From positions 5,418,632-5,482,631 of the forward strand of contig OX453285.1 of assembly GCA_949710005.1 (NCBI GenBank): 64,000 bases of DNA. Direction: 5' to 3'. The position numbers were made by a program, and so were the translations under genes. The stretch is from Ricordea florida. Taxonomy: Eukaryota > Cnidaria > Anthozoa > Corallimorpharia > Ricordeidae. Shown here piece after piece: positions 18,801 through 62,183 of the stretch; positions within the stretch are counted from its first letter, which is position 1, and the number at the start of each line of letters is the position of its first letter. The notes under the pieces were generated by a model that was not told the origin of the DNA, did no database searches, and was given only the letters and a program-made list of their open reading frames with translations.

Positions 18801-21800
18801 TATCGACCCGAAGAAAAACAATCCGCTTACCATGTGCGGAACAACAAGCTTCCGAAGATGAACACTGGAGCGTCATGCCTTCTGATGCACAATGGCTAGC
18901 AATGACGGATTTTCACGTTCATTTGCTCTGCGTTTTTTGAGTTCTGACTTCTCATGACAAAAGCTTTTTAGTTTGAGAGACCCGTAGCGTCACGCAGAGG
19001 TGAACGAAGAAACATTTACTCGGCCCAGTAATCGCAGTTTTCAAAATGCCGGGACACCGACAATACGATTTTTCACTCGTCTTCATCATCAAATTAAGAG
19101 GTGATTGAAATAAATATTTATGATAGGACCCCCAAAATTCTGGTCTGGACCCCCAAATATTTGTCCAAAGGGTCCAGAGGACCCCTACCCAATAAAACCT
19201 GGATGCAACACTGATAGAGGAATGTCTAGTATTTTCTTAAGTGCACAAGTGTCTTGCAGGAGTTTAATGCAACATGGTTTTGATTGTCTCTCAAGTGCCA
19301 AAGACTATATTTTGTTCCAGTACAAACACCAACAAACAAAATGGCTTCTGCTTCTTAAAACCTTTAGTGCCATATGAACTCTCGCTCGATCATGTGATAA
19401 GTATGATAACTGTGATTAGGTATCACAGAACGAATCTTCCAGATGATCCTTAATTACATGGGAAATCCAAGGTCACTATTGGCTCTGATGTTTCTTTTGT
19501 GACATTTCAGATCCACCATCCTGATAACTTGTGAATCCACAAGCTAACAATAAGGAAGTAATAGATGTATACGGTACCTGCTGGTGACAATAATGACATC
19601 TTCAGCAATGTTGGCCAGTTCTTTGATAGCTAAGTAAACCATTCTCCTGAGCATAACCTATTTAAACAAAATGATGAAAAGTGGTAGGGTTGTGGGATGT
19701 GGCTTGAAATGACAATGTCAAAATGTAATAAGGGTAAGTTGAAGCCACACATGTGCGCACTGAGACGACAGTGGTAGAAGGGATAAAACCCTGTTGCTAC
19801 CAAAAAAAAAGATGAAAAAATTGAGCTCAAAAGCCAGCAGCCATGGGCAGCTGTTTCGGCCTTGTTAGGCCTCATCAGCATGGCACAGCTAGCAGATGAG
19901 CTCTGGGTTCCCACATTACGAATGTCAAGATGATCAAAAATGGTAGGGTTGTGGGATGTGGCTTGAAGTGACAACGTCAAAATGCAATAAGGGTAATAAT
20001 ATTATTATCTTTTTAGTGCATGGTATTGTACCTTATCAGGCTCATCTCCAGTGTAATATAATTTATTCACATAACTGACGTAAAACAAAGGACACAACGC
20101 ATTCTTAACAATGTACCTAACCCTAACTAACAAAGAAAAGGAACAAATTATATTACACCAGGCATGACCCCCTTATCATACAGATAAGACTATAAGATGC
20201 ACTTTAAAAATAAATAAATGTGACCCTCCATGGGAAAACGTACACTAGCGCTTACCCGTTAAACGGGCAAAAACTAACGAATGGCCAATGGCCAATAAAG
20301 CTTTCTAACGGCTTACAGCTAACGGCTAACGGCTTACAGCTAACGGCTTACAACTAATGGCTAACGGATAGCTGCTAACGGCTAACGGCTTACAACTAAC
20401 GTTATTGACCATTTAACGGATAAGTGTTAGTGTACGTTTTCCCGTGGAGAGTCACAAATAGCTTCTTGCAGTGGCACATCCACCAGGTGGGGATTTGTCC
20501 ACTGTTTCCTGATCAAAATGAAATTTGGAGGTGTTTGATTTTTATGGAAGGAGGATGACCAAAGCACTCATAGAAAAACCCTTCAATATTGTGCCTTCAA
20601 TATTGTGCCAAACTTGCTCCCTTCATGCTGCCACACAATATGGAGAACTTCCTATTAAATAATAGATTTTGCATAATTTATACTACAGACCTAATACATG
20701 TAAATTAAGTATAAGGTCACAAAGTTTAACTTTGTGCAAGCATGAATAAAGAGAAGTTGAAGAAATAAATTAAAGGAGGGACCAAGAATTGCACTCTACT
20801 TACATCTTTTGACTGAAATAACTTTGTCATGGCAAAGAATGCTTCTGTCGCCTCAGTTGTACCCAAGTGTTGTCCCTGAAAGGTAATAATCAATGTTAGT
20901 ATAAATACTCAGGTGATTATACAAAATCGTGTGCTCTGATTGGTTCGCTATCTTGGATTATCAGCCTGTAATAACCTTGACGAACAAAATGGCTGCCAGT
21001 CGTACAATGTGTGTGCGTTTTTGTGTTGTACAATGCATTATTTTTAAAACTAGAAATACGACTCCCGCAAAAACCTCGCGAAGCTAGTTTTTGAAGAAGT
21101 CACAATGCTTTCATATTTTATTCTTTATTTTTTTTTTATATTATATATTTTATTTTTTATATTAGCGTAATCCCCATTATTTTATTTCTTATGCTGTGTT
21201 TGGTACACAATTAGTGACACCTGGTGCAAATTACATGATCAGTATACCGCTCAACACAGTGCTTAAAAATTGACCTTCATTTAGCTCTTTCACTGCCACT
21301 GAGATTGCACCAGAGGGAATAGAAGTAAAATTATTTATTATCTTGACAGGGAATACAGAGTCGATGAAGTATCACAATAATATTCACTTAACACAAATTG
21401 AAAATGATTGTAAATCTTTTGCAGGTGAAATCTTGAAGAGTTGATATGAATGCTTGTGTTTACCACGGTGTAAAAACCTGTGTTTTTTTTCTTTAGTTTT
21501 ATTTTCTTAGTCTCTACTGCTTTGTCTTCTTTGTTGTACATCACTTTTGAACACAATATGTTCTTACACAGAGGATGAGCTGAACGTTCCAATTATTTTT
21601 TGTTTATGTTTTTTTGGTTATAATTGCATGAGATTCATTGTAAGAAGAATCTTCTGATTAGATATTTTATTGTCTACTGCAGTCATTATTTCATTCCCGG
21701 GTAACCACAATTGAGAGCATTATGAATAGTGCATGTTTTAATGTGTGTACTCTTTCCAGTTGCAATGGTACCCCCAGTGGTAGATAGAAAAATTCCTCTT

Positions 21801-22967
21801 CCCTCAAAAGAGATGCCATATCAACAAATTGGGGGTAAAACAATTGGATTCTACAAAAGCTTTGAATAAAGGTTTGGTAATAGTGAGTGCCCACTGTATA
21901 GTATGTGGTTGTGCTATTTTTAGGTCATATCATAAAAACAATACATGTAAGAAAGAGTTATTGAAATCTTAATATGTTCAAAAAGATTGCTGCACTACGT
22001 ACTCCTGTAAAAAAATAATGTGAAATCAACATCAATCAGTCAAAAGTATATACCACATGAAAGTTTAATTGTGCTGTTACAGAAACAGGCAAAATATCCA
22101 TACCCAACCATAGAATAGTACATTATTTTGAATATATGAAAATTTCTATTATAAAAACTGCAGAAGAAAGATTTAATATAAGGACGGTATTTCATCGAAA
22201 AAGTCATGGCAGCCAGAGGTATTGAACTGTAACCAATGACATATAGTAACGAGAAGAACTATCATTATATTATTATCATTATTATTATCATTACTATTAT
22301 TATTACTGGTATTGATATTATTATTGTTATATTTTTTATGTTAAACATAATATATTTTTATGGGGTGGGATTCATGTCTTAATCTTGGTAAAGTTATTGT
22401 TACTCTACTACTAAAAGCAATACAAAAATCTTCTTAATAGGCTTTCCATCAGAGGTGGTAGTAATCAAAACAGCTCCAAACAATACCATTTCTTCTAAAA
22501 GGCTTAGAATCTAGTGCAGTCATTTGTCTAGAAAGTTTGTGTGGAAAATCATTATTGAAAGCATAGGGCATTTAGGAAACTTGAAACACTTGTTACTACA
22601 TACAGCACACTTGCAATGAATATATGAGAAAGATCATAAACATTTTGGCATTACAAAATTTATTTTCTTCTTTATAAAGTTTTTCCAATGTAAAAGGTTA
22701 ATTGCATGTTGTGGTTGTTATGAAATATTGATATTTGACATAAAAATAAAGTAAACGGCAGAAAGTAACAAAGTTAATATGTTATGTCTAACTTTGCAAA
22801 TTAAGGCTTGAATTAACATTTCATTTGTGAAAAAAGGGCAGGGGTTCTAGATAGCAATATTATCAGGGGGGGGGGGGGTCATTGCACTCTAAGGTAAAAC
22901 TGACCCATTGTGAAAAGGCTATGAAACTTGTCTCTACACAATATTATTGAAACCTTTCAATCAGAGA

Positions 22968-23008
<41 letters not shown>

Positions 23009-25090
23009 GCAAAGAGAAATACTACTCAGAATTCAGTAATCACATTTGCTTTATTTTAAAATGATCACATTGATCACTGATAATATTGCAGAACCAGTAC
23101 TTTATAGTGACACAGGGTATACATTCTGTTGAAAATGTTTAACATAACTGCTAGATCAAGAAAATTTACAATATTTTCACTGTTGCAATGATATCAGATC
23201 ACATCGTTATAAATGATTGCTATAACAACTGCAACTCTCTGTGTTGGAAATTACTTCAAACTGGAAACGCTATCGTTTTATTATGAAAAATACCTATTTA
23301 CATTCTCTTGTAATCTGTTGGTCGTCTTCCGATTCCGGTTTTAGACTAATAGAATTATTTTCCAGAGACATCTCCAATCGTTGAAGTCGTTCTTACTCGG
23401 TGTCCCTTCTAAGTCGTTTTGCTAAATGTAGTACACCAATATATTTCGTTATGTAATCGTTCACTCATGTCCTGTATTTCTATCAATAACACATTCAAAT
23501 TCAAAACTAACTTGATTGAATTCCTGGTCCTTTTCCCTGCTGTTTCGTTTGCCTTTTTCTGGAGCGAGCAGTTGTTGTCTTGGCTGCGATTTCTGTTGTT
23601 ATTCTCCCTGCTGTCGTTTCTCTATCCCTGCTTTGAGTCGTGCTTTCCTCGTGTTGATTTTCACGGTATTCGAACTTACTCGGCGACGATCTCGTGCTAA
23701 TATTTCTTGAATATCTTGGAGATCACCTTGCTGGGATGTACTTCCAGGACGAGTGAAATCGGTTTCCACAAAATTTACATTACTTTCAAAAAGGCATCAC
23801 CAAATAATGGCGGAAATTCAGCGTTCTCAAGTGCGTTACTATTGCCAGGAAACCTGGCCTGCGAACGGACACCTTTAAAATATAGATATATATAAACATA
23901 TATATAAATATATATATATACATATATAAAAACTCTCGGCTCGATTTACTCGGGCTTGCGAGCCACGTGGTCTGACCGGAACCGACACGATTAGTAACCT
24001 CGCTACGCTCGGCCTTCGGCCTCGCTTCGCGAGGAACAATCACATGTGTATTTATACTAACTAAAAACAATTATTCGCCTCAGGCTCAGTGATTATCAGT
24101 GAATATTCACTGATAATCACTTTGTCTTTGATGAATGATTGTTAATTAACATTTAAGTTAACATTAAGCAATTTTCCCTTGACAAAGATCTACTGAGACT
24201 TTTCTCCTAACTGTTGTCACATATTTGTTACGATACTAGTGAGGAGAATTTGTTTAAATAGAGTGCATCACTGCAACTCTTTTTTTGGTGACCATTCTTG
24301 TTATTCCCATAACTTGAATGGTTGATGAACAGTGAATACTGTAATGAGAAAGGTTCGCTCTATGAGAAAAAATCTGAACGTCCCAATTTGAAGGTCACCT
24401 GCAAGGTCAGGGGAAATTCGATGCCGGTATCATTTTCTACATCCTATTGAAATGGCTATGCGGTCACCAATTCGTTTCTTCTCAGAAAAAAAGGCACGAA
24501 ATAAACGGGCTCACAAAATAAAACTATGGACTTCACGTAAAAAGAAGTTTTGATAAAATTATCTGCAAAACAAACACTAAGCTTACCTGATTTAGGACGT
24601 ACAGGATCTTCGTCAAAATATGAATACATTTCCGTGGATTTATCGGCGTCTCGTTGAAAGTGCGAGCCTATTAAAGTAAATTGCATATGATATTTAATTT
24701 TTTTTTCCATGGTATATCAATACGATAAAAAAGCGAATTTAGGAATTTCCTTAACTGGCATTGTAATATAATCGGCAGAAAGGTTGTAGTTTCGACTCCC
24801 ACTGAGAGGACTCGGGTTAGCTTTTCCAGAGTTTGCCTGTGACTGTGCCGAAAAATACATCTTTCACATATTTTCCAGGCGTAAAATATACGATCTTCAT
24901 TATTTTACAAATCCTTACCTCTTGAAGAACGGAACTTTTGTCCAAGTTCTGGAACGGATTCGATTGAAGCCCTAGAAAAATAACGCAGTAACCCTCGATT
25001 AAAAAAACGCTAATTTTTTAATGATTTATCGGTCCAAACCTCTGTCTTACCGTCTTCTTCATCCTTCTTGTCTCGCCGTAAATACTGCAT
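689..25090 (-). CDS. COPG: Coatomer subunit gamma (gamma-COP), 21 exons, 3' end outside window
   Basis: Gamma subunit of the COPI coat, which drives retrograde Golgi-to-ER vesicle transport. Exons in transcript order: 25051-25090, 24919-24971, 24587-24667, 20804-20875, 19578-19657, 18366-18390, 17519-17569, 17309-17401, 15679-15765, 15457-15573, 14980-15020, 10584-10638, 9795-9873, 8534-8712, 7919-8019, 6623-6695, 6437-6515, 5166-5330, 4110-4185, 1122-1225, 689-832. All have AG acceptors and GT donors, and the phases join to 1795 nt, about 598 codons. The start is the ATG at 25090 ([14 protein letters not shown]). Recognisable family segments include [73 protein letters not shown] and [15 protein letters not shown]. 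These cover the N-terminal HEAT-repeat adaptin-like trunk and the start of the linker. The gamma appendage domain must lie left of position 1. No frame disruption is seen despite very TE-rich introns. Family assignment is from remembered animal sequences, not a search. Confidence 0.95.
872..1066 (-). repeat. 106-bp satellite, 2 units, fills COPG intron 20
   Basis: Two units of the dispersed satellite (GTGACCATTCTTTGGAAAGCTACTG on the other strand) make up two thirds of the 289-bp intron between exons 20 and 21. Confidence 0.85.
2511..2858 (-). pseudogene. RPA-like OB-fold/zinc-ribbon fragment
   Basis: The minus strand reads [20 protein letters not shown], then a zinc ribbon ([14 protein letters not shown]...[26 protein letters not shown]), to a stop at 2511. 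The CxxC...CxxC pattern, with an OB-fold strand order after it, resembles the C-terminal DNA-binding domain of replication protein A large subunit. In cnidarians such RPA-like genes are multicopy and often carried by Helitrons or other elements. The frame closes at a TAA just upstream, so this is a partial copy. It sits in the COPG intron between exons 20 and 19. Family assignment is from the cysteine pattern only. Confidence 0.55.
3027..3130. repeat. 21-bp minisatellite
   Basis: About 4.7 tandem copies of CTCAATCATCCTCCGAAGAGG with few mismatches. It lies immediately upstream of the RPA-like fragment on its coding strand. Confidence 0.85.
3205..3480. repeat. Two diverged tandem copies of a ~135-bp unit
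   Basis: The segments near 3209-3345 and 3346-3480 share AAGCGAC...TGCTGC(A/G)AAATAAA, TTCATGCTCTGAA / TTCACGCTCTGAA and GTGAAAACAGG / GTGAAAAGCCGG. They form an old tandem duplication in the COPG intron. Confidence 0.55.
3985..4096 (-). repeat. 106-bp satellite, one degenerate unit
   Basis: A single diverged monomer (GGACAGTACTGTTGAAAAGAATGGTCACACTTCA...CACTGTATAGCAAAACAAAC) ends 14 bases left of COPG exon 19. Confidence 0.7.
4325..4435. repeat. Imperfect palindrome (AATTTGCACAAGTGAGTTTTTC...)
   Basis: AATTTGCACAAGTGAGTTTTTCAAAAAGC and its reverse complement flank a roughly 45-bp core. It is a short MITE-like hairpin in COPG intron 18. Confidence 0.65.
4932..5150. repeat. Penelope-like inverted hairpin unit 1
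   Basis: Two head-to-head copies of the GAAATTGGGATAATCAAACAAATT...GGAGGTGCTGATGTTTCAAGC sequence form a ~210-bp palindrome beside the exon 18 donor. The minus strand retains CTGACGA (5038-5044) and GAAAC (5020-5024), a layout like the small hammerhead ribozymes of Penelope-like retroelements. Related copies are at 10705, 33655, 35000, 50090, 52705 and 54060. Confidence 0.6.
5695..5795. repeat. Hairpin ACAATTCAGGGATAATC...GATTACTCCCTGAATT
   Basis: Inverted arms AATTCAGGGATAATCGTGC and GATTACTCCCTGAATTATA flank an inner ATTTCAAAT(C) palindrome. MITE-like, in COPG intron 17. Confidence 0.6.
6826..6950. repeat. Hairpin GACTGGTCTC...GGACCAGTC
   Basis: Terminal inverted arms GACTGGTC / GACCAGTC, with inner repeats of GTTTCCCAAGAATCTCAATGTTTCC and its inverse. 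A small non-autonomous element of unknown class in COPG intron 15. Confidence 0.6.
7041..7607. repeat. Pure (GTAT)n microsatellite, ~142 copies
   Basis: 567 bases of uninterrupted GTAT with no visible substitution, in COPG intron 15 between exons 16 and 15. The open frames across it are consequences of the repeat, not genes. Confidence 0.98.
8085..8532 (+). repeat. 106-bp satellite, ~4 units, forms most of COPG intron 14
   Basis: Unit spacing measured at ACCATGCAGTGTGACC (8253, 8359, 8465) is 106 bp. The array fills nearly all of the 514-bp intron between exons 15 and 14, and its last unit decays into the donor of exon 14. Confidence 0.9.
8713..9794. other. COPG intron 13, no recognisable element
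   Basis: AT-rich intronic sequence with homopolymer runs (T-run near 9470, A-run near 9684). I see no exon, RNA gene or repeat with defined ends. Confidence 0.6.
10018..10116. repeat. ~100-bp hairpin ATGAATTTTACTTT...AAAATTCAT
   Basis: ATGAATTTTA and AACAACATTTTAC on the left pair with GTAAAATGTTGTT and TAAAATTCAT on the right. It produces part of a long but non-genic open frame in COPG intron 12. Confidence 0.6.
10705..10870. repeat. Penelope-like hairpin unit 2 (degenerate)
   Basis: Contains CTGGTGCTGCGTTGGTGGGGAATTGAAACACAAG, GGATAATCAAACGAATTGAT and GGAGGTGCTGACGTTTCGAATG, then a mutated inverted partner. It immediately precedes the LINE remnant and lies downstream of the decayed Helitron gene. 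A small fragment of the same family is at 14836-14890. Confidence 0.6.
10903..10971 (+). pseudogene. LINE reverse-transcriptase ORF C-terminal remnant
   Basis: The plus strand reads [22 protein letters not shown] and then stop. This matches the usual C-terminal end of animal non-LTR retrotransposon ORF2 proteins (VxxFKxxLKTxLF). It is followed by a short 3' UTR-like stretch. Only the last 22 codons are present, a typical 5'-truncated insertion. Confidence 0.5.
11114..14255 (-). pseudogene. Decayed Helitron Rep protein (N-terminal part; helicase missing)
   Basis: Three open stretches read leftward as one broken gene in COPG intron 11. From 14255 the frame runs through an in-frame TGA at 13785-13787 and a TAG at 13563-13565 into the ORF beginning at 13553. 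That ORF ends at 12762 after a one-base frameshift near 12780-12795, and the frame continues as 12778-11114 (554 aa). The first part ([15 protein letters not shown] and [19 protein letters not shown] regions) looks like the cysteine-protease/OTU-like N-terminus seen in some animal Helitrons (low confidence). Next are Lys-rich 19-residue repeats ([19 protein letters not shown] type), a CxxC zinc motif, a [17 protein letters not shown] segment (DUF6570-like) and a Helitron_like_N region with [10 protein letters not shown] and an HUH motif in [10 protein letters not shown]. The frame ends soon after the HUH motif, so the catalytic tyrosines and the Pif1-type helicase are absent. It cannot transpose by itself. 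Confidence 0.85.
12950..13275 (-). repeat. 57-bp coding tandem repeat in the Helitron ORF
   Basis: About five units of 57 bp encode 19-residue Lys/Gln-rich repeats with the core KYKTMD-x-AKKQ-x-LLN. They lie between the N-terminal domain and the zinc motif of the Helitron protein. Such repeats probably form a basic helix, but their role is not known to me. Confidence 0.8.
14254..14306. repeat. Short tandem AGGTTCACGATAAA repeat upstream of the Helitron ORF
   Basis: Three to four imperfect copies of a roughly 15-bp unit lie immediately 5' of the Helitron reading frame. They may be part of its promoter or terminus. Confidence 0.7.
14603..14630. repeat. Hairpin CTCGGGC...GCCCGAG near the Helitron 5' side
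   Basis: A near-perfect inverted repeat (CTCGGGC-GTTTCC-TTC-GGAAA-GCCCGAG) sits about 350 bp upstream of the Helitron reading frame. AAGCCCGAGTAAA at its edge also occurs in the end of the 3-kb HINE-like element. Whether it marks the Helitron terminus is not established. Confidence 0.55.
14735..14835. repeat. LINE 3'-tail-like fragment (GTAAAGCGCTTTTGA...)
   Basis: TGTAAAGCGCTTTTGACC...AAAAAGCACTATAGAAATATTATTA resembles the 3' end shared by CR1/L2-type animal LINEs and their SINEs. A related fragment is at 15085-15140. Confidence 0.45.
15085..15370. repeat. LINE 3' tail interrupted by a hairpin element
   Basis: GTAAAGTGCCTTTGAACATATTC...AAAAAGTGCGCTATATAAATTCATTATTAT at 15085-15140 is a second LINE-type 3' tail. 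Inside its terminal microsatellite lies a stretch with the inverted pair GCGGGCCGTACTTCACTG / TGTACGGCCCGC and an outer TTACAGTACGGACC echo, ending in a CATTAT run. Within COPG intron 10. Confidence 0.45.
15821..16198 (-). repeat. tRNA-derived SINE
   Basis: Read on the minus strand, it begins with a tRNA-like head (GCCGACCAGTTAGCTCAGTTGG, A-box TAGCTCAGTTGGTAGAGC; B-box GGGTTCAAAACCC). A conserved body follows (TGTGGGACGTAAAAGAATCC, TTCCCGGTGTCATTG), and it ends in an (ATT)n tail at 15821-15857. That is the full layout of a tRNA SINE. It lies in COPG intron 8. It is not a functional tRNA. Confidence 0.85.
16393..16723. mobile_element. 331-bp MITE with CAGGGCTCGA termini
   Basis: Termini CAGGGCTCGA and TCGAGCCCTG are inverted repeats, flanked on both sides by CTATG (16388-16392 and 16724-16728), a 5-bp target duplication. 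Internal GGCGAC/GTCGCC motifs recur in both orientations. No coding capacity. In COPG intron 8. Confidence 0.8.
17635..18180. mobile_element. CAGTGTTGC-type non-autonomous element, copy 1
   Basis: Perfect 15-bp terminal inverted repeats CAGTGTTGCATCCAG / CTGGATGCAACACTG. CAGxG-type ends suggest hAT, but no 8-bp duplication is clear. Contains the GGACCCCC...AAGGGGTCC inverted motif. About 1 kb from a second, highly similar copy in the same orientation, with COPG exon 6 between them. Confidence 0.8.
18266..18362. repeat. ATT/ATC trinucleotide tract
   Basis: Impure (ATT)n/(ATC)n tract ending four bases from COPG exon 6. On the transcribed strand it is purine/pyrimidine-asymmetric and lies just inside the exon 6 donor. 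Confidence 0.8.
18666..19213. mobile_element. CAGTGTTGC-type non-autonomous element, copy 2
   Basis: Same 15-bp terminal inverted repeats and body as the copy at 17635-18180, with scattered substitutions. Lies in COPG intron 5, just downstream (minus-strand sense, upstream) of the 25-nt exon 6. Confidence 0.8.
19676..19996. repeat. Direct repeat pair (GGTAGGGTTGTGGGATGTGGCTTGAA) flanking a hammerhead-like motif
   Basis: A ~60-bp sequence occurs at 19680-19735 and 19942-19996 in direct orientation, like short terminal repeats, around a ~200-bp core. The same 60-mer occurs in reverse at 32825-32882 and 51875-51932 next to Ly6 gene B exon 3. It is therefore a dispersed family, possibly a Penelope-type pLTR. 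Confidence 0.65.
19840..19885 (-). ncRNA. Hammerhead ribozyme-like motif
   Basis: On the minus strand: GCCATG (stem I), CTGATGA core, stem II GGCCT-AACA-AGGCC, GAAA core, stem III ACAG/CTGC, one cleavage-site base, then CATGGC closing stem I. Both conserved boxes (CUGANGA and GAAA) and perfect 5- and 6-bp stems II and I are present. Stem III has no loop, as in the minimal hammerheads reported in Penelope-like retroelements. The base expected to be U at position 16.1 is C here, so self-cleavage may be lost or weak. Flanking GAGCTC on both sides extends stem I. Confidence 0.65.
20219..20456. mobile_element. 238-bp MITE with TGTGACYCTCC termini and internal GCTAACGGCTTACA repeats
   Basis: Ends TGTGACCCTCCATGGGAAAACGTACACTA and TAGTGTACGTTTTCCCGTGGAGAGTCACA are imperfect inverted repeats of about 29 bp. 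The interior is a run of GCTAACGGCTTACA-like units. In COPG intron 4. Confidence 0.75.
21049..24035 (-). mobile_element. 2,987-bp Helentron/HINE-like element, copy in COPG intron 3
   Basis: The same element is found at 59196-62183 and, with a nested insertion, at 55621-59090. In the orientation of those copies it starts T(C/T)CTCGCGAAGCGAGGCCGAAGG and ends GCTTCGCGAGG-TTTTTGCGGGAGTCGTATTTCTAGT. It has no terminal inverted repeats, but CCTCGCGAAGC recurs inverted about 25 bp inside the other end. It makes no target duplication. These traits fit non-autonomous Helitron relatives (Helentron-associated elements). Internal landmarks are (TA)n, a G-run and ATT tracts. I see no ORF above 100 codons and no Rep or helicase motif. 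Confidence 0.7.
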
Positions 25091-27434: not shown

Positions 27435-30400
27435 ATGGTTTGTATGAACAAAGTTTTTGCAGTGGTGTCAATAGTTTCATGCCTTAGCATATTCCTGCCC
27501 AAAGGTAAGTGGTTATGTTTTAAAAAAAATCAAATACAAGTCGAATTAGTTACCTCTTTGTATCAAACGCTTAATATAAGAAAACGTCGCATAGAACGGG
27601 GGGCAAAAGTTCGAATTTGAAACGCAAAGGAACGTGAAGTATTTGTCTTTACAAACGACTGCAGTGAAATAGTTTTTCGGTTTCATTGTTCATGGCGCTT
27701 AAGTTTCAAAGCTTTTTTTCGTCGAGGTACCGAACTGTTTGTTTAGCGAAAGCTCGTAAAGTAATTGTTCACACTCACAATAGTGGTCCTCAATTTCGAC
27801 ATAGTTAAAAAAGCTACGTTCGCTCGATATACATGGTCAAAATTTTGACTTTTCATGTGGTGACACAAAATATGCTACTGAACTTATACGCGTACCACCC
27901 AATTAAGACTGAACCCGGCTAACGTTACTCCAGTCAATTCGTAATTAAGACCATGCTGTCTTTGGAATCTCTGGCTGATCGAGAACTTTTTAGAAAGGTA
28001 CTATTCTGTTTGTTGTACTATACAGTGTAAATGTGGTTCTTACTTTTTCATCTGTTGGTCAAACCAGGCAGTTTAACGTACCATTCTTTGGAAAGCTACT
28101 GAACAGCACTGTACTGTGCCACTGTTTGTTTTACTATACAGTGTGGTTCTAACTTTTTCATCTGTGGATCAAACTATGCAGTGTGACCATTCTTTGGAAA
28201 GCTACTGAACAGTACTGCACTTTCCGGTACTGTTTTTTTTTCACTGCAGAGTATGGTTCTGACTTTTCAGTTTTTATGATCTTTGAACAATACCATGCAA
28301 TTTGATTATCAAGCTGCTGAACAAAACTCCCTTGGGATATCCCTAGGTATATTTTATTGTTTAGTGTGAGACATTAAGGTTTCGAAAACTGGGGATATTT
28401 CAACTAATGTTACCGAACTCAAGTATCGTTTGTTTCATTGCGCACTTGGGGTGGTACCAATATCATTTCCCAGCCAATTTGTTTTCTCGAAATCCTTCTT
28501 CTTAGTGCTTAAATCCCATTCCTACTGGCAGTATTCCGAAAAAAAAATCAAATTTCCCATTCTCGGTGACCGATCAAACAAAAAAATCCCATTTTCCCAG
28601 GGCGAAACCCGGCCAATCCCAATTTCTATTTTAACCCTTCGGCACCCTCAAATGAGCATATAGGATCTATATATGTGAGATCTTCAGTAATGTGTCTCGA
28701 AGCTCAGTTTGTTTGTAGAACTTTATCGCTCCAGACATTTTTAGATTGCGTTTGCTACATATATTCAGAGACTAGAGTATTCCTAAACTGAAAATATTTT
28801 GCCATTTCACTAATGAGAACTTAAGAAAGTACACGTTGTTTTCGCATTACTTTTCTTTAACGGGAAATTGGCAATTTATTAACGTAGCAACAACCTCCAA
28901 CAATTACATGTAACAATCGAAGAAACAACAGTTATTGGTACTACGATTTGTTTTGTGTTGGCCATTGTCAGAAACACGAAAATCAAAATAGATGCTTTTC
29001 CGTTTCTGTGTTTATAATTACACCAATTTAATTTATCTTCATCAAAACACGGCTCCAGTTTTGTTTTTAAAAGGGTTAATTCTATGCAAAAATTTTTTGG
29101 CCACTTCGTAAAAGCCACTATAATTTAAATACAAGGAAACTTAAATGTTAACTTTTCTTCGCGGTTTAATTTCCATGATAACCTGCGATCAGGCGATTTT
29201 TTTTCTTTGAAAAAAAAATAACCTGATCGCAGGTTAGATTGTATCTGACCAAAACAAGCTTCAGTGAAATTAAGGCACGTAAAAAAAGATATAGCCATGA
29301 AATCAATTCTCTTAGAAATAGCTCCATTTTTTCGTGTGAAATTCTGTCTCCTTCGAAAAATGGTTGGTCTAAATGTTTGAAAGTGGGCAATACCAAGTTT
29401 CAGGAATTTTCAGATTTACTGAAAAGACTTTAGTTTGCAGATAATTATTCGGTTATTTTAAATTTTCTTTTATGAAAATTTTTGCCGAGGGATTCTCAAC
29501 CCCACCATACAAAAGAAACAGTTAATTTGTTTGACTTTGAAAACAACTCTTTTTCATTTGTAAGTTAACGCTAAGACAATCACAAAAAGCGGAAAATTGT
29601 TCGTGTTGTTTCATTAATTTCACAGTTGATGGAACAGAGAGAAGAAAGCTGGCCAATGATTGACAGCCTAATCTTCCGCGTTTTTCTTAATTCCAACTTT
29701 TTAAATAAAAAAATCACAGGCTTTATTTCTAAATTAAGTTTCCTGTGTGTTCGCACGAAAATTTTGGGGAAGATGACATCGTGGAAAATTTAATTTCTTT
29801 CTTAGTTTCGCTGTATTTGAGAATTTTGATTTGACGAACGAAAACAAATTGTGTAAACTTTCTAATTTTGCGGCGAGCCAGAAAACACCCCATATACATT
29901 TATTCCGCATGGGAAAAAGTTAAGTTTAACAAAATGATGGGAGATTTAGTCGGATGAATTCATTTTACACAGGGATGAAAATCTAACCGAAATAAAATAT
30001 TCTGCATGGCATAGTAAAAAATAGCACTTTTCAATTATGCCAGAAAAGTGGATGTTATTAAGGTCTGTCTTTTAAATTTCAAAGGGATTTTAGACTAAGG
30101 TTAACAACAGACGATTTGCTCAGAGATACTGAAACATTGAATATTTTTTCTCATGTTTCTCAAGCCTCAACAGTGAAAATTTACGAAGAAAAGTCTTGTT
30201 TTACTATAACTTCCTGTTTATCTTGACTTCTACTTGATGTTCTAAAAATGGCGCCTCTGTGAAAGATCGATAACCGGTTATAACACAAATTTCCCGCACT
30301 TTGATTGCGCGCTCTCCTCTTAGCGTTAGTTTTTGTAACAGAAACGAATTTAAAAAAAAAATTATTCGGCCTCTTTTGCAGTGGCCCAAATTAAGCAGAA

Positions 30401-35600: not shown

Positions 35601-36728
35601 GGGTCATCATCGCAAGTTGCTTGACTCACTGCCGGGTTGTTGGTACACACGACACATTTTATGGAATAAGCTGAGAAATAAGAGTATAAAGAATCTATTA
35701 TATCTCATTGGTGTTCTTGCCGAGATTGTCCTTTGGCAACAAGACCACTTTTTAATTTAAATAGCTTTTCCAGGGATTCGTGCATGATACAGAAGCTTAG
35801 ATTTTTAAGTGTACAATAATACTAATACCAACACCAAGACCAATACCAACACCAACATCAATAACAACACTAACACACTTATACTAATACTAATGCTACT
35901 ACTAGTACTAATACTCATACTCAGACTAATACTTCTAATAATGATGCAAATGAATATATGAAAGACCATATATTTGAACTGCGGAGTAATATGTAATGAT
36001 ATTAATCGATCATCGCAGTTATGTACACAACTTAAACAGCTGTGGAATTAAAGTCTGAAAAAAATGATGATCAATTAATGTCATTACATATCACTCCGCA
36101 ATTCAAATATATGGTCTTTCATATATTCATTTGCATCATTCTTCTCCATCTACGGGTATATTATGAACTCACAACATGACCAGCTCCCAGTTGGCTTCAT
36201 AGCTCAGTTGGTAGAGCACTGCACCGGTATCGCAGAGGTCATGGGTTCGAATCCCGTTCAGGCCTGAGTTTTTTTTTTAGGCTTTAATTTCACAGCTGCT
36301 TAAGTTGACTACTAAAAATACTTGAACACCAGCACCGTACCAAAACCAATAAGAATAGGAATTCTAACACTAATACCAATAGCAATGTCAATGCCAATGC
36401 TAAATGCTAATGCTAATGTTAAGACTAACACTAACACTAACACAAATACTAATACTAATACTAATAATAATACTAATATTAATACTTAAACTAATACTAA
36501 TCATTATACTAATACTAATAATAATAATATATAATTATACTAATACTGATAATTATACTAATTCCTCGCGAAGCGAGGCCGAAGGCCGAGCGTAGCGAGG
36601 TTACTAATCGTGTCGGTTCCGGTTCAGACCACGTAGCTCGCAAGCCCGAGTAAATCGAGCCGAGAGTTTTTATATATGTATATATATTTAGCAATTATTC
36701 CACGAAATCGAGTCGTATATGAGCTAAT

Positions 36729-36761
<33 letters not shown>

Positions 36762-39700
36762 AGCTCATATACGACGAGATTGAGTGGAATAATTGTTTTA
36801 TTATATCTCTAAACCCTCGCTTATGAGACACTGGAATTAGTTTGTACGACAAGAATTGACTTTGTTATTGTTTTTGAACAGAACCATGTCAGTTGTCGAG
36901 CCGACATATTGTAGAGCCGATGTGTAACACTAATACCAATAGCAATGTCAATGCCAATGCTAAATGCTAATGCTAATGTTAAGACTAACACTAACACTAA
37001 CACAAATACTAATACTAATACTAATAATAATACTAATATTAATACTTAAACTTATACTAATCATTATACTAATACTAATAATAATAATATATAATTATAC
37101 TAATACTGATAATTATACTAATACTAATACTAATACTAACACTAATAATTATACTAATACTAATACTAATAATTGTACTAATACTAATACCAAGGCTTAT
37201 GCTATTGCTAATACTACCACGACTAATATAATAATGATAATAATAGAAAAATAAAGATAGAGGAAAAAAAAGAATGAGGACCTCAGGAAGGTGATTGCAA
37301 GAGTGTGGAGATTGAAAGAAAGTTAAAGTTGTGCCTGTTGTGACCTTAGCACTTTGAAGTGCATGTAAAAATAATCGATCTAATATCGATCTTAAGAAAA
37401 GTACTTGAAAATTGATGCGCTCCCCTAGTGGTAAATGAGGAGCGTAGTAATTTTTCAACATTCGCTACTAAAATATCCTGAGCTTGAGAATTTAAAAATA
37501 AACAACGCAAACTGTATTTTACTACAGAAGCACTACAATCAGCACTTAAGTGATGTTATCATCGGACTAGCACGAGTTCTCTAGTGGGAGAAACATTAGA
37601 TGCCTTACGCAGACACTACAGTAACTTTCGGAAAAGCAGAGCTTAAAAATCGTTTTCCTAGTCGTACCGGAGGAGAAATGAATGGTGTAAAGATTCACAG
37701 ATAAAAAGGGTAGAGCTACCTTGTGTAGTAGAACAAAGAGTACCACAGTAAAGTACTGTTGAGTAGCTTTTCAACGAATGGTCGCGTTGCATGGTTTGAT
37801 CCACAGATGAAAAAGGTAGAACCACACTGTATTAGTATAGTAAAACAAACAGCACCACAGTATAGTACTGTTCAGTAGCTTTACAACGAATGGTCACACT
37901 GCATGGTTTGATACACAGATGAAAAAGTTAGAACCACACTGTGTAGTAAAACAAAGAGTACGACAGTACAGTACTGTTCGATGTTCAGTAGCTTTCCAAA
38001 GAATAGTCGCACTGCATGGCTGGATAAACAGATGAAAAAGTTAGAACCACACTGTACAGTAAAACTAGCAGTACCATAGTACAGTACTGTTCAGTAGCTT
38101 TACAACGAATGGTCACACTGCATGGTTTGATCCACAGATGAAAAAGTTAGAGCCACGCTGTACAGTAAAACAAGCAGTACCACAGTGCACTACTGTTCAC
38201 TGAGTAGCTTTACAACGAATGGTCACACTGGATGCTTTGATCCACAGATGAAAAAAGTGAGAATCACACTATATAACATAAAACAAACAGTACCACAGTA
38301 TAGTACTGTTCGTAGCTTTCCAAAGAATAGTCACCCTGCATGGTTTGATCCACAGATGAAAAAGATAGAACCACACTGTATAGTAAAACAAACAGTACCA
38401 CACTACAGCACTGTTTAGTAGCTTTACAAAGAATGGTCACACTGCATGGTTTGATCCACAGATGAAAAAAGTGAGAACCACACTGTATAACATAAGACAA
38501 ACAGTACCACAGTATAGAACTGTTCGTAGCTTTCCAAAGAATAGTCACACTGCATGGTTTGATACACAGATGGATGATAAAGTTAGAACCACACTGTATA
38601 GTAAAACAAACAGTACCACAGTATAGTACTGTTCGTAGCTTTCCAAAGAATGGTCACACTGCATGGCTCGATCCACAGATGAAAAAGATAGAACCACACT
38701 GTATAGTAAAACAAACAGTACCACAGTACAGCACTGTTCAGTAGCTTTACAAAGAATGGTCCCACTGCATGGTTTGATCCACAGATGAAAAAAGTGAGAA
38801 CCACACTGTATAACATAAAACAAACAGTACCACAGTATAGTACTGTTCGTAGCTTTCCAAAGAATAGTCACACTGCATGGTTTGATCGTAGTTACTAAAA
38901 CGAGGAACCACCCAAAACGACCCAAAATGACCCAAAACGACCCACAACCATCCACACCGATCCACAACGAACCTAAAACGATCCACAACGACCCACAACG
39001 AACCAAAATATTCCAAAACGACCAAAAACGCCTTTGATAGTTTTTTTATAAATTAAACACTGACTTGTTGACTAAACTCGTCCCCAGGGCTCCCCTATGT
39101 TAAGATATCGATTTCGAAACATTTTGTGACAAGTTTGCCATGAATGAGCGAAAGTGAATCGATATTAAGTCGAAACATCATCGGATCTTCCTTGTCAATC
39201 TTCGGAAATTTTCGAAAAAAGTCGGAAAATCTTCGGAGACATTCGTACGACCTTCGGACAACATTTTTACAGAGCGGTCATATGAAAACGCAAACATAAA
39301 GTATCCATACTTGAGATATGTTCTTGGTCTTCCTGCAAGTCTGCCATCATCGACTACGCATGCATGCGTGGCAATGATTGGATCTGTATTTTCTCCCAAA
39401 TTGTAATTGTAATGGAGTTTCGTGGCTCTTCCCTTTGCCTCAGGAAGTCGTAAAGTGTGAAGTCTCCTCGGGGGTCAAGGAGAAGGAGCAAACAGCAGAT
39501 CACATAAAAAAACAAATCGCTGTCTTTGCGGACTCATTTTAAGACAAGGCATTTTCATAATTGGAGATACACCCCTCCTCATGCCGACCACCACCCCCCT
39601 CCTCCTTCAAAGCTCACGAAAAAACAATAAGTATAGGCATTCGCTCGACCTCAACAAAATTCCTCCTCGGTTCGTCTTCAGAATACCCCAGGTAAACATC

Positions 39701-50875: not shown

Positions 50876-50908
50876 ATAAACTGCTTGAAAACCATACCCT
50901 TCACAGCG

Positions 50909-50947
<39 letters not shown>

Positions 50948-54728: not shown

Positions 54729-55250
54729 CTGAGAAATAAGAGTATAAAGAATCTATTATATCTCATTGGTGTTCTTGCCGAGATTGTCCTTTGGCAACAA
54801 GACCACTTTTTAATTTAAATAGCTTTTCCAGGGATTCGTGCATGATACAGAAGCTTAGATTTTTAAGTGTACAATAATACTAATACCAACACCAAGACCA
54901 ATACCAACACCAACATCAATAACAACACTAACACACTTATACTAATACTAATGCTACTACTAGTACTAATACTCATACTCAGACTAATACTTCTAATAAT
55001 GATGCAAATGAATATATGAAAGACCATATATTTGAACTGCGGAGTAATATGTAATGATATTAATCGATCATCGCAGTTATGTACACAACTTAAACAGCTG
55101 TGGAATTAAAGTCTGAAAAAAATGATGATCAATTAATGTCATTACATATCACTCCGCAATTCAAATATATGGTCTTTCATATATTCATTTGCATCATTCT
55201 TCTCCATCTACGGGTATATTATGAACTCACAACATGACCAGCTCCCAGTT

Positions 55251-55323
55251 GGCTTCATAGCTCAGTTGGTAGAGCACTGCACCGGTATCGCAGAGGTCAT
55301 GGGTTCGAATCCCGTTCAGGCCT
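55251..55323 (+). repeat. Second copy of the tRNA-like sequence
   Basis: Identical in sequence to 36193-36265, including the stem mismatches. It is part of the second large copy. Confidence 0.6.
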
Positions 55324-55620
55324 GAGTTTTTTTTTTAGGCTTTAATTTCACAGCTGCTTAAGTTGACTACTAAAAATACTTGAACACCAGCACCGTACCA
55401 AAACCAATAAGAATAGGAATTCTAACACTAATACCAATAGCAATGTCAATGCCAATGCTAAATGCTAATGCTAATGTTAAGACTAACACTAACACTAACA
55501 CAAATACTAATACTAATACTAATAATAATACTAATATTAATACTTAAACTAATACTAATCATTATACTAATACTAATAATAATAATATATAATTATACTA
55601 ATACTGATAATTATACTAAT

Positions 55621-55786
55621 TCCTCGCGAAGCGAGGCCGAAGGCCGAGCGTAGCGAGGTTACTAATCGTGTCGGTTCCGGTTCAGACCACGTAGCTCGCA
55701 AGCCCGAGTAAATCGAGCCGAGAGTTTTTATATATGTATATATATTTAGCAATTATTCCACGAAATCGAGTCGTATATGAGCTAAT

Positions 55787-55819
<33 letters not shown>

Positions 55820-58800
55820 AGCTCATATACGACGAGATTGAGTGGAATAATTGTTTTATTATATCTCTAAACCCTCGCTTATGAGACACTGGAATTAGTT
55901 TGTACGACAAGAATTGACTTTGTTATTGTTTTTGAACAGAACCATGTCAGTTGTCGAGCCGACATATTGTAGAGCCGATGTGTAAAAAAGTTTGAAACAC
56001 GAGTCCGGCTCGTTTTTAAACATCTCTTTAATGTACTTGTCAATTTTTTTTCGAGTTAGCAAATTAGTTTAAGAATTTTAAAGTGGAAAAAGTAGGCAGA
56101 AATAAAATAAAACTCAGTTTACGGGCTTCACAGATCTTTCAAAATGGCGGCTGTTTGTAAGAGTTTCACTTTCGTTCGTAATAAACAATTTCGCAATATA
56201 ATTTGCTCACTTACCGTCGAATAATTTCATCCCATAATTATTTGCTTCGGTAGTATTTCTTCGGTGTATGATTTTTAAGCTTGACTTGAATTTCTCCCTG
56301 TCTAATTCAAGAAATCATCCCTCCATGATGGCCGTTTTCCGTGCCAATGGTATATGAGCTGATATACTATGAGTAGGGAACCAATCAGAGCGCGCGTTTG
56401 CTCATATACAAGGGTTGCAGATATAATAAATATATATATCTATATTTTAAAGGTGTCCGTTCGCAGGCCAGGTTACCTGGCAATAGTAACGCACTTGAGA
56501 ACTGCTGAATTTCCGCCATTATTCGGTGATGCCTTTTTGAAAGTAATGGAATTTTGTGGAAATCGATTTCACTCGTCCTGGAAGAACATCCCAGCAAGAT
56601 GATCTCCGAGATATTCAAGAAAGATTAGCTCGAGATCGTCGCCGAGTAAGTTCGAATACCGTGAAAATCAACACGGGGAAAGCACGACTCAAAGCCGGGA
56701 TAGAGAAACGACAGCAGGGAGAATAACAACAGCCAAGACAACAACTGCTCGCTCCAGAAAAAGGCAAACGAAACAGCAGGGAAAAGGACTAGGAATTCAA
56801 TCAAGTTAGTTTTGAATTTGAATGTATTATTGATGGAAATACAGGACATGAGTGAACGATTACATAACGAAATATATTGGCGTAGTACATTTAGCAAAAC
56901 GACTTAGAAGGGACACCGAGTAAGAACGACTTCAACGATTGGAGATATCTCTGGAAAATAATTCTATTAGTCTAAAAACGGAATCAGAAGACGACTAACA
57001 GATTACAAGAGAATGTAAATAGGTATTTTTCATAATAAAACGATAGCGTTTCCAGTTTGAAGTAATTCCCAACACAGAGAGTTGCAGTTGTTATAGCAAT
57101 CATTTATAACGATGTCATCTGATATCATTGCAACAGTGAAAATATTGTAAATTTTCTTGATCTAGCAGTTCTGTTAAACATTTTCAACAGAATATATACC
57201 CTGTGTCACTATAAAGTACTGGTTCTGCAATATTATCAGTGATCAATGCAATCATTTCAAAATAAAGCAAATGTGATTACTGAATTCTGAGTAGTATTTC
57301 TCTTTGCTATATATATATGTATGTATTCTCTGATTGAAAGGCTTCAATAATATTGCGTAGAGACAACAAGTTTCATAGCCTTTTCACAATGGGTCAGTTT
57401 TACCTTAGAGTGCAATGACCCCCCCCTCCCCTGATAATATTGCTATCTAGAACCGCTGCCCTTTTTTCACAAATGAAATGTTCATTCAAGCCTTAATTTG
57501 AAAAGTTAGACATAACATATTAACTTTGTTACTTTCCGCTGTTTACTTTATTTTTATGATCATCATGTCAAATATCAATATTTCATAACAACCACAACAT
57601 ACAGTTAACCTTTTACACTGGAAAAACTTTATAAAGAAGAAAATAAATTTTGTAATGCCAAAATGTTTATGATCTTTCTCATATATTCATTGCAAGTGTG
57701 CTGTATGTAGTAACAATTAAGTGTTTCAAGTTTCCTAAATGCCCTATGCTTTCAATGATTTTCCACACAAAATTTATAGACAAATGACTGCACTAGATTC
57801 TAAGCCTTAAAGAAGAAATGGTATTGTTTGGTGCTGTTTTGATTACTACCACCTCTGATGGAAAGCCTATTAAGAAGATTTTTGTATTGCTTGTAGTAGT
57901 AGAGCAACAATACCTTTACTAAGATTAGGACGTCATGCATCCCACCCCATAAAAATATATTATGTTAACGTAAAAAGTATAACAATAATAATAATATCAA
58001 TACCAGTAATAATAATAGTAATGATAATAATAATGATAATAATATAATGATAGTGCTTCTCGTTACTATATGTCATTGGTTACAAGTTCAATACCTTTGC
58101 CTGCCATGACTTTTTTGATGAAATACCATGCGTATATTAAATCTTTCTTCTGCAGTTTTTATTATAGAAATTTTCATGTATTCAAAATAATATACTATTC
58201 TCTGGTTGGTTATGGATATTTTGCCTGTTTCTGTAACAGCACAATTAAACTTTCATGTGGTATACACTTTTGACTGATTGATGTTGATTTAACATTATTT
58301 TTTACAGGACTATGTAGTGAAGCAATCTTTTTGAACATATTAAGATTTCAATAACTCTTTCTTACATGTATTGTTTTTATGAGATGACCTAAAAATAGCA
58401 CGACCACATACTATACAGTCGGCACTCACTATTACCAAACCTTTATTTAAAGTTTTTGTAGAATCCAATTGTTTTACCCACAATTTTTATTTTATGTAAT
58501 GACATTGTATCTCACACTTCTGTTGATATAATAACAAAAAACATAAATAAAAAATAATTGGAGCATTCAACTCATCCTCGGTGTAAGAACATATTGTGTT
58601 TAAAAGTGATGTACAACAAAGAAGACAAAGCAGTAGACTCAGACTAAGAAAATAAAACTAAAAAAAAAAAACACAGGTTCTTACACCGTGGTAAACACAA
58701 GCATTCATATCAACTCTTCAAAATTTCACCTGCAAAAGATTTACAATCATTTTCAATTTGTGTTAAGTGAATATTATTGTGATACCTCATCGACTCTGTA

Positions 58801-59090
58801 TTCCCTGTCAAGAGAATCAATAATAATTTTACTTCTATTCCCTCTGGTGCACTCTCAGTGGCAGTGAAAGACCTAAATAAAGGTCAATTTTTAAGCACTC
58901 CGTTGTGCAGTATACTGATCATGTAATTTGCACCAGGTGTCACTAATTGTGTACCAAACACAGCGTAACAAATAAAATAATGGGGATTACCCTAACATGA
59001 AAAATATCAAATAAAAAATAAAATATAAAAGCATTGTGACTTCTTCAAAAACTAGCTTCGCGAGGTTTTTGCGGGAGTCGTATTTCTAGT
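55621..59090 (+). mobile_element. HINE-like element, 3,470 bp, with a nested insertion
   Basis: Inserted in the ACTAAT tract: TATACTAAT|TCCTCGCG at the left and TTTCTAGT|ACTAATACTAAC at the right. The first copy near 37122 reads straight through. About 700 bp near 55745-56430 is foreign to the other two copies and begins with the CAATTATTCCAC palindrome. The rest is somewhat diverged from the other copies (small indels near 58480 and 58640), so it is not a product of the same recent burst. Confidence 0.75.
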
Positions 59091-59195
59091 ACTAATACTA
59101 ATACTAACACTAATAATTATACTAATACTAATACTAATAATTGTACTAATACTAATACCAAGGCTTATGCTATTGCTAATACTACCACGACTAAT

Positions 59196-62183
59196 TTCTC
59201 GCGAAGCGAGGCCGAAGGCCGAGCGTAGCGAGGTTACTAATCGTGTCGGTTCCGGTCAGACCACGTGGCTCGCAAGCCCGAGTAAATCGAGCCGAGAGTT
59301 TTTATATATGTATATATATATATATTTAAATATATGTTTATATATATATATCTATATTTTAAAGGTGTCCGTTCGCAGGCCAGGTTACCTGGCAATAGTA
59401 ACGCACTTGAGAACGCTGAATTTCCGCCATTATTCGGTGATGCCTTTTTGAAAGTAATGTAAATTTTGTGGAAACCGATTTCACTCGTCCTGGAAGTACA
59501 TCCCAGCAAGGTGATCTCCGAGATATTCAAGAAATATTAGCACGAGATCGTCGCCGAGTAAGTTCGAATCCCGTGAAAATCAACACGAGGAAAGCACGAC
59601 TCAAAGCAGGGATAGAGAAACGACAGCAGGGAGAATAACAACAGAAATCGCAGCCAAGACAACAACTGCTCGCTCCAGAAAAAGGCAAACGAAACAGCAG
59701 GGAAAAGGACCAGGAATTCAATCAAGTTAGTTTGGAATTTGAATGTGTTATTGATAGAAATACAGGACATGAGTGAACGATTACATAACGAAATATATTG
59801 GTGTACTACATTTAGCAAAATGACTTAGAAGGGAAGCCGAGTAGGAACGACTTCAGCGATTGGAGATGTCTCTGGAAAATAATTCTATTAGTCTAAAAAC
59901 GGAATCGGAAGACGACCAACAGATTACAATAGAATGTAAATAGGTATATTTCATAATAACACGATAGCGTTTCCAGTTTGAAGTAATTCCCAACACAGAG
60001 AGTTGCAGTTGTTATAGCAATCGTTTATAACGATGTGATCTGATATCATTGCAACAGTGAAAATATTGTAAATTTTCTTGATCTAGCAGTTATGTTAAAC
60101 ATTTTCAACAGAATATATACCCTGTGTCACTATAAAGTACTGGTTCTGCAATATTATCAGTGATCAATGCAATCATTTCAAAATAAAGCAAATGTGATTA
60201 CTGAATTCTGAGTAGTATTTCTCTTTGCTATATATATATATATATATATGTATGTATTCTCTGATTGAAAGGTTTCAATAATATTGCGTAGAGACAACAA
60301 GTTTCATAGCCTTTTCACAATGGGTCAGTTTTACCTTAGAGTGCAATGACCCCCCCCCCTCCCCTGATCATATTGCTATCTAGAACCCCTGCCCTTTTTT
60401 CACAAATGAAATGTTAATTCAAGCCTTAATTTGCAAAGTTAGACATAACATATTAACTTTGTTACTTTCTGCCGTTTACTTTATTTTTATGATGTCAAAT
60501 ATCAATATTTCATAACAACCACAACATGCAATTAACCTTTTACATTGGAAAAACTTTATAAAGAAGAAAATAAATTTTGTAATGTCAAAATGTTTATGAT
60601 CTTTCTCATATATTCATTGCAAGTGTGCTGTATGTAGTAACAAGTGTTTCAAGTTTCCTAAATGCCCTATGCTTTCAATAATGATTTTCCACACAAACTT
60701 TCTAGACAAATGACTGCACTAGATTCTAAGCCTTTAAGAAGAAATGGTATTGTTTGGAGCTGTTTTGATTACTACCACCTCTGATGGAAAGCCTATTAAG
60801 AAGATTTTTGTATTGCTTTTAGTAGTAGAGTAACAATAACTTTACCAAGATTAAGACATGAATCCCACCCCATAAAAATATATTATGTTTAACATAAAAA
60901 ATATAACAATAATAATATCAATACCAGTAATAATAATTGTAATGATAATTATAATGATAATAATATAATGATAGTTCTTCTCGTTACTATATGTCATTGG
61001 TTACAGTTCAATACCTCTGGCTGCCATGACTTTTTCGATGAAATACCGTCCTTATATTAAATCTTTCTTCTGCAGTTTTTATAATAGAAATTTTCATATA
61101 TTCAAAATAATGTACTATTCTATGGTTGGGTATGGATATTTTGCCTGTTTCTGTAACAGCACAATTAAACTTTCATGTGGTATATACTTTTGACTGATTG
61201 ATGTTGATTTCACATTATTTTTTTTACAGGAGTACGTAGTGCAGCAATCTTTTTGAACATATTAAGATTTCAATAACTCTTTCTTACATGTATTGTTTTT
61301 ATGATATGACCTAAAAATAGCACAACCACATACTATACAGTCGGCACTCACTATTACCAAACCTTTATTCAAAGCTTTTGTAGAATTCAATTGTTTTACC
61401 CCCAATTTGTTGATATGGCATCTCTTTTGAGGGAAGAGGAATTTTTCTATCTACCACTGGGGGTACCATTGCAACTGAAAAGAGTTACACACATTAAAAC
61501 ATGCACTATTCATAATGCTCTCAATTGTGGTTACCCGGGAATGAAATAATGACTGCAGTAGACAATAACATATCTAATCAGAAGATTCTTCTTACAATGA
61601 ATCTCATGCAATTATAACCAAAAAACATAAACAAAAAATAATTGGAGCATTCAACTCATCCTCTGTGTAAGAACATATTGTGTTCAAAAGTGATGTACAA
61701 CAAAGAAGACAAAGCAGTAGAGACTAAGAAAATAAAACTAAAGAAAAAAAACACAGGTTTTTACACTGTGGTAAACACAAGCATTCATATCAACTCTTCA
61801 AGATTTCACCTGCAAAAGATTTACAATCATTTTCAATTTGTGTTAAGTGAATATTATTGTGATACTTCATCGACTCTGTATTCCCTGTCAAGATAATAAA
61901 TAATTTTACTTCTATTCCCTCTGGTGCAATCTAAGTGGCAGTGAAAGAGCTAAATGAAGGTCAATTTTTAAGCACTGTGTTGAGCGGTATACTGATCATG
62001 TAATTTGCACCAGGTGTCACTAATTGTGTACCAAACACAGCATAAGAAATAAAATAATGGGGATTACGCTGATATAAAAAAAAATATATATATAATATAA
62101 AAAAAAAAGAATAAAATATGAAAGCATTGTGACTTCTTCAAAAACTAGCTTCGCGAGGTTTTTGCGGGAGTCGTATTTCTAGT
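59196..62183 (+). mobile_element. HINE-like element, 2,988 bp, clean insertion
   Basis: Left junction CGACTAAT|TTCTCGCG and right junction TTTCTAGT|ATAATAATG. The empty site in the first copy (37210-37226) reads CGACTAATATAATAATG, so nothing was duplicated or lost. Nearly identical to the COPG-intron copy over its full length, in opposite orientation. Confidence 0.8.

Follow-up and report, generated by a model that had tools for sequence, protein, structure and literature searches.

A putative Helitron2-type transposon family in the genome of Ricordea florida and the head-to-tail stacking of its copies

Three copies and their insertion sites

The stretch of DNA analyzed here, hereafter the window, comprises 64,000 nucleotides of the corallimorpharian Ricordea florida (assembly GCA_949710005.1, contig OX453285.1, positions 5,418,632 to 5,482,631 of the forward strand) and harbors three copies, E1, E2 and E3, of a non-autonomous transposable element. 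In window coordinates, E1 lies on the minus strand at 21049..24035, while E2 and E3 occupy the plus strand at 55621..59090 and 59196..62183, respectively. A first-pass annotation, made from the letters of the window, had described them as copies with common exact ends, and a reading of the termini bears this out, all three sharing the terminal sequence T|T(C/T)CTCGCGAAGCGAGG...GCTTCGCGAGGTTTTTGCGGGAGTCGTATTTCTAGT|, in which the bar denotes a junction. E1 and E3 (each about 2988 bp) are 98.6% identical, and E2, with 3470 bp, shows ~95% identity to each of them in a MAFFT alignment. Three short open reading frames (ORFs) within the copies gave no match in Pfam.

The 3' ends are of the CTAG type, and a 5' sequence recurs in inverted orientation near the opposite end, both as previously proposed; the latter takes the form of asymmetric subterminal inverted repeats in E1 through E3. 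In E2, the 5' repeat CCTCGCGAAGC is located at 55622..55632 (+), within a predicted hairpin (about 55622-55658), and the 3' repeat GCTTCGCGAGG at 59055..59065 (+), about 25 nt from the 3' end. E3 carries a 5' repeat that differs by one base (TCTCGCGAAGC, 59197..59207, +) and the same 3' repeat GCTTCGCGAGG at 62148..62158 (+), while the repeats of E1 are found on the minus strand at 24024..24034 (5') and 21074..21084 (3'). The 5' repeat is situated 1 nt from the element end; for the 3' repeat, the distance to its own end is 24-25 nt in 52 of the 54 cases. The predicted 5' hairpin, which contains the 5' repeat, occurs among loci L001-L032 and the window in a long form (51 cases, -12.2 kcal/mol) and a short form (13 cases, -6.3 kcal/mol), both with the stem CCTCGC/GCGAGG. 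Shuffling of the 60-61-nt 5' ends yielded z-scores of only -1.25 and -0.28, and fold energies of single ends were set aside as proof of hairpins because these scores are weak.

Two large copies of a sequence of about 19 kb, the second of which contains E2 and E3, are units of a tandem array, and the unoccupied sites in the first unit are thus paralogous. When the 60 + 60 bp flanking each insertion were joined and matched to the first unit, all 120 of the 120 bases agreed, both for E2 (37063..37182, +; junction 37122|37123) and for E3 (37168..37287, +; junction 37227|37228). The base-exact empty sites that had been reported therefore stand, except that the site of E3 had been placed near 37218. 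Three T residues are present at the junction in the occupied locus and one in the empty locus, and one T is unassignable between element and target.

The family is large. In the 537.8-Mb genome, a 14-mer of the 5' end is found 3081 times, versus once for a reversed control pattern, and a 17-mer of the 3' end 3243 times versus none for its control, which amounts to about 3,000 copies; no match to the 3' end pattern turned up in viral contigs. A sample of 20 loci, fetched around listed 5' ends, was read together with the window, providing 53 5' ends, 35 3' ends and 34 insertions with both ends. For 13 of the latter a clean empty site was found in the sampled DNA, often within another copy of the family, and target duplications of 2 bp or more were observed at none of the 13, in agreement with the duplication-free insertion suggested earlier. 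These 13 include one site with a substitution at the junction, one with an 8-base gap 9 bases off and one with 81 aligned bases. The remaining 21 pairs were left out owing to lower identity (L010|569 and L017|538), a match to their own junction (L011 twice, L015|300), a poor match (E1) or the lack of any empty-site match (15 pairs).

The flanks of these insertions define a target word. All 50 distinct left flanks end in T, which extends the previously noted adjacency to a T; position -4 is T in 48, position -3 is A or T in 46 and position -2 is A or G in 48. The complete word TWRT (W, A or T; R, A or G) precedes 43 of the 50, as opposed to 8.8% of the T positions in the sampled DNA, and on the right side A or T follows the shared T in 32 of 33 flanks. 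The target is T-W-R-T|W. Genome-wide, TWRT stands directly before the 5' end in 2263 cases; this fraction of the 3081 14-mers, as well as the 75 of 100 in one unselected span of contig C1, represents a lower bound on the fit. The element itself terminates in TAGT|, such that the right junction, TAGT|W, is shaped like a fresh target, while the left junction retains TWRT. The 3' terminus and the target are words of one kind, and any inserted copy is therefore bordered on either side by a TWRT-type word.

Long relatives encoding Rep and helicase

On contig C1, a Helitron_like_N match is located downstream of a 5' end of the family, at a distance of 2.7 kb. The element at this place (L021:219-7994, 7776 bp) carries both family ends and codes for DUF6570, Helitron_like_N and PIF1 domains in broken frames. 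Six more loci were fetched (L022-L027), four of which (L022, L023, L024 and L027) contain both family ends, 7.7-8.8 kb apart, and a single ORF of 1944-1990 aa. L025 retains the frame together with a 3' end, and its 5' end falls at the edge of the locus; the frame of L026 includes unknown bases, and a clear 5' end is lacking there. The autonomous Rep-helicase relative with matching ends, for which the first-pass annotation had advised a search, is thus present in the genome.

In all three ORFs scanned against Pfam, STPR repeats, DUF6570, Helitron_like_N and PIF1 were detected, and no endonuclease was detected in any of the three. All five ORFs terminate shortly after the PIF1 helicase and contain the motifs HAH, YMAKY and GTAGTGKS (Walker A); the Rep motif, RGSIHAH, displays the Helentron-type S. 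The ratio of nonsynonymous to synonymous substitution rates (dN/dS) ranges from 0.195 to 0.376 across 10 ORF pairs, and the Rep-helicase (RepHel) genes are under purifying selection. Matches in the PDB comprise PIF1 helicases, Helraiser (helicase part only) and, for the N-terminal repeats, FMBP-1. The STPR repeats fused to the N-terminus of RepHel in L022, L023 and L027 are a DNA-binding repeat known from FMBP-1, and no description of such repeats on a Helitron RepHel was found in the literature searched.

Comparison of E1-E3 with the 5' part of L021 reveals 94-96% identity over the first 127-179 bp, 70-73% over 400-643 and 75-78% over 836-949; in the last kilobase, pieces align at 77-83%, and the last 58 bp at 93%. 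Judging from these alignments, E1-E3 are largely deletion derivatives of the autonomous element, with a middle partly of other origin. The ~3 kb of non-coding cargo noted previously is indeed conserved among the copies, yet much of it represents remains of the autonomous element, parts of it aligning with the 5' and 3' non-coding regions. Taken as a whole, E1-E3 are very probably non-autonomous members of a recently active Helitron2-type family that are supplied with RepHel by the long relatives and inserted on the basis of TWRT.

The window also contains a Helitron gene of its own, at 11114-13562 on the minus strand, which is unrelated to the family. It codes for DUF6570 and Helitron_like_N with the Rep motif RGSPHLHA, includes 57-bp tandem repeats that encode a repeated N-terminal stretch and is cut off before the helicase. 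As a partner of E1-E3, this gene (11114-12811, -) was rejected, with 25% identity to the partner Rep over 270 aligned positions.

Head-to-tail stacks and a possible reuse of element ends

Copies of the family adjoin one another far more often than expected, and always in one orientation. Genome-wide, 61 head-to-tail junctions with a gap of 0-8 nt between the end patterns were found, of which 34 are perfect (CTAGT|TCCTCG; about 0.3 expected), 6 contain one extra T and 21 a short spacer; in 54 of the 61 a TWRT word precedes the 5' end of the second unit. Matching searches for 3'-3' and 5'-5' junctions returned 0 each. Among the first 100 5' motifs of contig C1, neighbors less than 4 kb apart reside on the same strand in 32 of 37 cases, and a large-scale strand effect was dismissed as the cause, given the absence of orientation bias beyond 4 kb. 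Following 100 consecutive unselected 3' ends of C1, a same-strand 5' end occurs within 400 bp in 14 cases, versus 0.13 expected, and no convergent or divergent pairs were found among them within that distance.

Such stacks could represent rolling-circle multimers, or concatemers inserted from a circular intermediate. The 34 perfect junctions carry the very sequence expected of a circle junction, and Helraiser is described as forming precise end-to-end circles (PMC5876387). Against this stands the composition of the stacks. In all four perfect junctions that were read (L028-L031), the adjoining units differ: those of L028 are ~90% alike and match two different subfamilies at 97.6% and 98.6% identity; in L029, where one unit is composite, aligned pieces longer than 300 bp are 91.5-95% alike; the units of L030 are 83-90% alike; and in L031 a single stretch of 411 bp aligns, at 88%. 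Neighbors separated by gaps of 5-362 bp are likewise merely 78-94% alike in six of six pairs. The unlike units point to separate insertions, fresh multimers being rejected for the four junctions read, and as a general account of the stacks multimers seem unlikely. For maize, two adjacent, unlike Helitrons have similarly been argued to be consecutive insertions (PMC2267711).

Alternatively, AT-rich and TWRT-rich stretches on one strand may act as hotspots that draw independent insertions. A TWRT-rich microsatellite holds both E2 and E3, 105 bp from each other, and neither is present in the other unit of the array; in maize, Helitrons are said to insert close to one another (PMC12477314). A hotspot would nevertheless be an improbable cause of the strict orientation within 400 bp and of the complete lack of 3'-3' and 5'-5' junctions. 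Moreover, 5' flanks located in the body of resident copies exhibit no same-strand preference, with 7 on the same strand versus 12 on the opposite one, a count that leaves out two window flanks mapped by microsatellite only. At the 3' end of a resident, or within about 110 bp of it, all nine insertions share its direction; four of the nine derive from loci chosen for a junction of this type, and two belong to a single duplicated locus. In L015, L018 and L029, same-direction insertion ~110 bp upstream of the resident 3' end has occurred repeatedly, and several such insertions are nested in L029.

The mechanism that we propose begins with the STPR-DUF6570-Rep-PIF1 protein of the 7.7-8.8-kb relatives, which would move E1-E3. 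The ends may be recognized via the 5' hairpin and the asymmetric inverted repeats at both ends, and Rep would most likely nick a single strand, directly behind TWRT at the 5' end (TWRT|TCCTCG) and directly behind TAGT at the 3' end (CTAGT|). The strand would then be joined at a TWRT|W target without duplication of the target, such that the cuts at both ends and the cut in the target would all fall behind a TWRT word. The HUH enzymes of the bacterial elements IS91 and IS200/IS605 also insert by a fixed tetranucleotide that is found at the element boundary as well, without target duplication; these systems operate without a PIF1 helicase, and the likeness is an analogy of mechanism. Resident copies would accordingly offer nickable landing sites at both ends, at which later elements insert, and joining at either resident end would yield the identical perfect head-to-tail junction. 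The shared word of end and target would thereby render perfect junctions common, locked in orientation and composed of unlike units. That the stacks arose by such repeated, orientation-locked insertion of unlike copies into the ends of residents has, in our estimation, an even chance of being correct.

Several points count against this proposal. Reuse of the nick sites at element ends does not by itself account for the excess at 5-400 bp, for which it may be supposed that a replication fork of the resident element, running past the 3' end, exposes one target strand. The four junctions read are a small part of the 34 perfect ones, both units are complete in L028 only, and a 944-bp stretch in L029 is 95% alike. 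In addition, the junctions are partly copies of one event, for at least one tandem array exists: six of the 61 are clustered within 22 kb on contig C4 (C4:20465447-20487379), most of them ~3.09 kb apart. The ambiguous T would also allow a cut one base before the one proposed. Downstream of the 3' repeat, the separate hairpin that would be expected is predicted to fold weakly (-2.4 to -5.4 kcal/mol in DNA folds), its pairing overlaps the 3' repeat, and the fold of the 61-nt 3' end reaches a z-score of about -1.5 relative to shuffled sequences. The C4 stretch itself is a tandem array that has apparently grown from this transposon.

Should serial insertion into resident ends be confirmed, head-to-tail stacks, which are often read as multimers, would be serial insertions, and they could seed satellite-like arrays. 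The choice between multimers and serial insertion becomes a matter of counting, as 61 close junctions, with units separable by subfamily, are available in one genome. In the literature searched, neither a target word that matches the 3' terminus, nor strict head-to-tail arrangement without opposite junctions, nor STPR repeats on RepHel was seen described.

The tandem array, the class of the family and other repeats

The tandem array of ~19-kb units spans 31900-64000 of the window and locus L032. Its two units in the window are 99.5-99.7% identical, and beyond the window the array continues with another unit, which is more diverged (93-98% identity). Short cysteine-rich ORFs are located inside the units. 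Their products, presumably resembling Ly6/uPAR proteins, gave no match in Pfam.

The first unit is not plainly empty at the site of E2. It contains, in order, a remnant of the first 366 bp of E2 (36562..36927, +; 100% identical to 55620-55985), a 198-bp duplicate of the left flank of E2 (36925..37122, +; a copy of 36365-36562 with 99.5% identity) and the intact empty site. Remnant and duplicate suggest an aborted insertion, an illegitimate exchange of an occupied unit with an empty one, or a stitch in the assembly; the three bases that they have in common at their join suggest one of the latter two. The empty sites and the 19-kb unit could be an assembly artefact, in which two haplotypes were laid end to end, as the high identity of the units and the resemblance of the remnant and flank duplication to a stitched join would allow. 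This is highly doubtful in view of the diverged unit downstream, and the 11 further clean empty sites belong to other insertions.

The first-pass annotation had called the element Helentron- or HINE-like. A rolling-circle element of the Helitron type is supported by the ends, the absence of duplication and the Rep-helicase relative, yet the strict designation is not. Within the Helitrons, the features of the sequence point to the Helitron2 type, in a "proto-Helentron"-like form. Its elements with matching ends code for an HUH Rep with two tyrosines and a PIF1-type helicase, the 5' repeat at 1 nt and the 3' repeat at 24-25 nt from the respective ends fall within the 0-2 bp and 20-30 bp of Helitron2, and the predicted 5' hairpin includes the 5' repeat. 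In the description of Helitron2 by Bao and Jurka 2013 (PMC3627910), a 3' hairpin is featured and pairing of the two repeats is proposed to set the end of replication. The present family resembles that description in the hairpin-borne 5' repeat next to a 5' T, in the distance of the 3' repeat and in RepHel; it differs in a TWRT target identical in kind to its 3' TAGT, in the STPR repeats and in a 3' hairpin that is only weakly predicted.

Proto-Helentrons are characterized by 5' TT and 3' CTAG termini, a target between A and T, and a Helentron-type Rep without endonuclease. If the boundary is shifted by one base, the family would fit except for the base before TT, where 37 of the 50 flanks have A, 11 have G and 2 have T. 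Proto-Helentron-Pi of Phytophthora infestans, with 5' TT and 3' CTAG, is described as inserting between A and T and as devoid of an endonuclease (PMC4067079). Given the shift of one T, it shares the termini, the adjacency to T, the lack of duplication and the S of Rep, but a Helitron-like structure is ascribed to it, in contrast to the asymmetric repeats and TWRT observed here; this comparison is by description only. FoHeli1 and FoHeli2 of Fusarium oxysporum, reported to insert at TNAT|A (PMC5148889), are also of the Helitron2 type, with the same uncertainty of one T and no endonuclease; these elements are fungal, and their 3' end, ATTTT, does not repeat the target word as TAGT does here.

Helentrons, HINEs and DINE-1, as described in PMC4067079, have in common with the present family the short non-autonomous copies derived from RepHel elements by deletion, the subterminal repeats and the absence of target duplication. 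For the mite HINEs, the 3' inverted repeat is reported to lie 38-60 nt from the end. That E1-E3 are strict Helentrons or HINEs, moved by a Rep-helicase-endonuclease protein, is very improbable: the inverted repeats, duplication-free insertion and S of RGSIHAH would suit them, and at least 150 scored Rep matches among 428 candidates indicate other Helitron families in the genome, but the elements with matching ends carry no endonuclease (three of three by Pfam, five of five by C-terminus), insertion takes place at TWRT|W and not in TT or a T-rich sequence, with one T at the empty-site junction, and the 3' repeat lies only 24-25 nt from the end. A canonical Helitron (Helitron1; 5' TC, 3' CTRR, insertion between A and T, no 5' hairpin) is partly matched by CTAG and the following T, but the predicted 5' hairpin, the 5' inverted repeat and, after a one-base shift, the mixture of A, G and T before the 5' TT do not agree with it. 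As an animal family of the Helitron2 type, with open RepHel genes under purifying selection, exact ends, a target word and ~3,000 copies, these elements would be good material for studies of non-canonical Helitron transposition.

The window contains further repeats. A perfect (GTAT)n array of 567 bp occupies 7041-7607, and tandem arrays of one unit of ~106-110 bp are dispersed at 868-1064, 8090-8519, 28034-28267, 30893-31100, 33009-33273, 37692-38887, 40124-40788 and 62648-63843.

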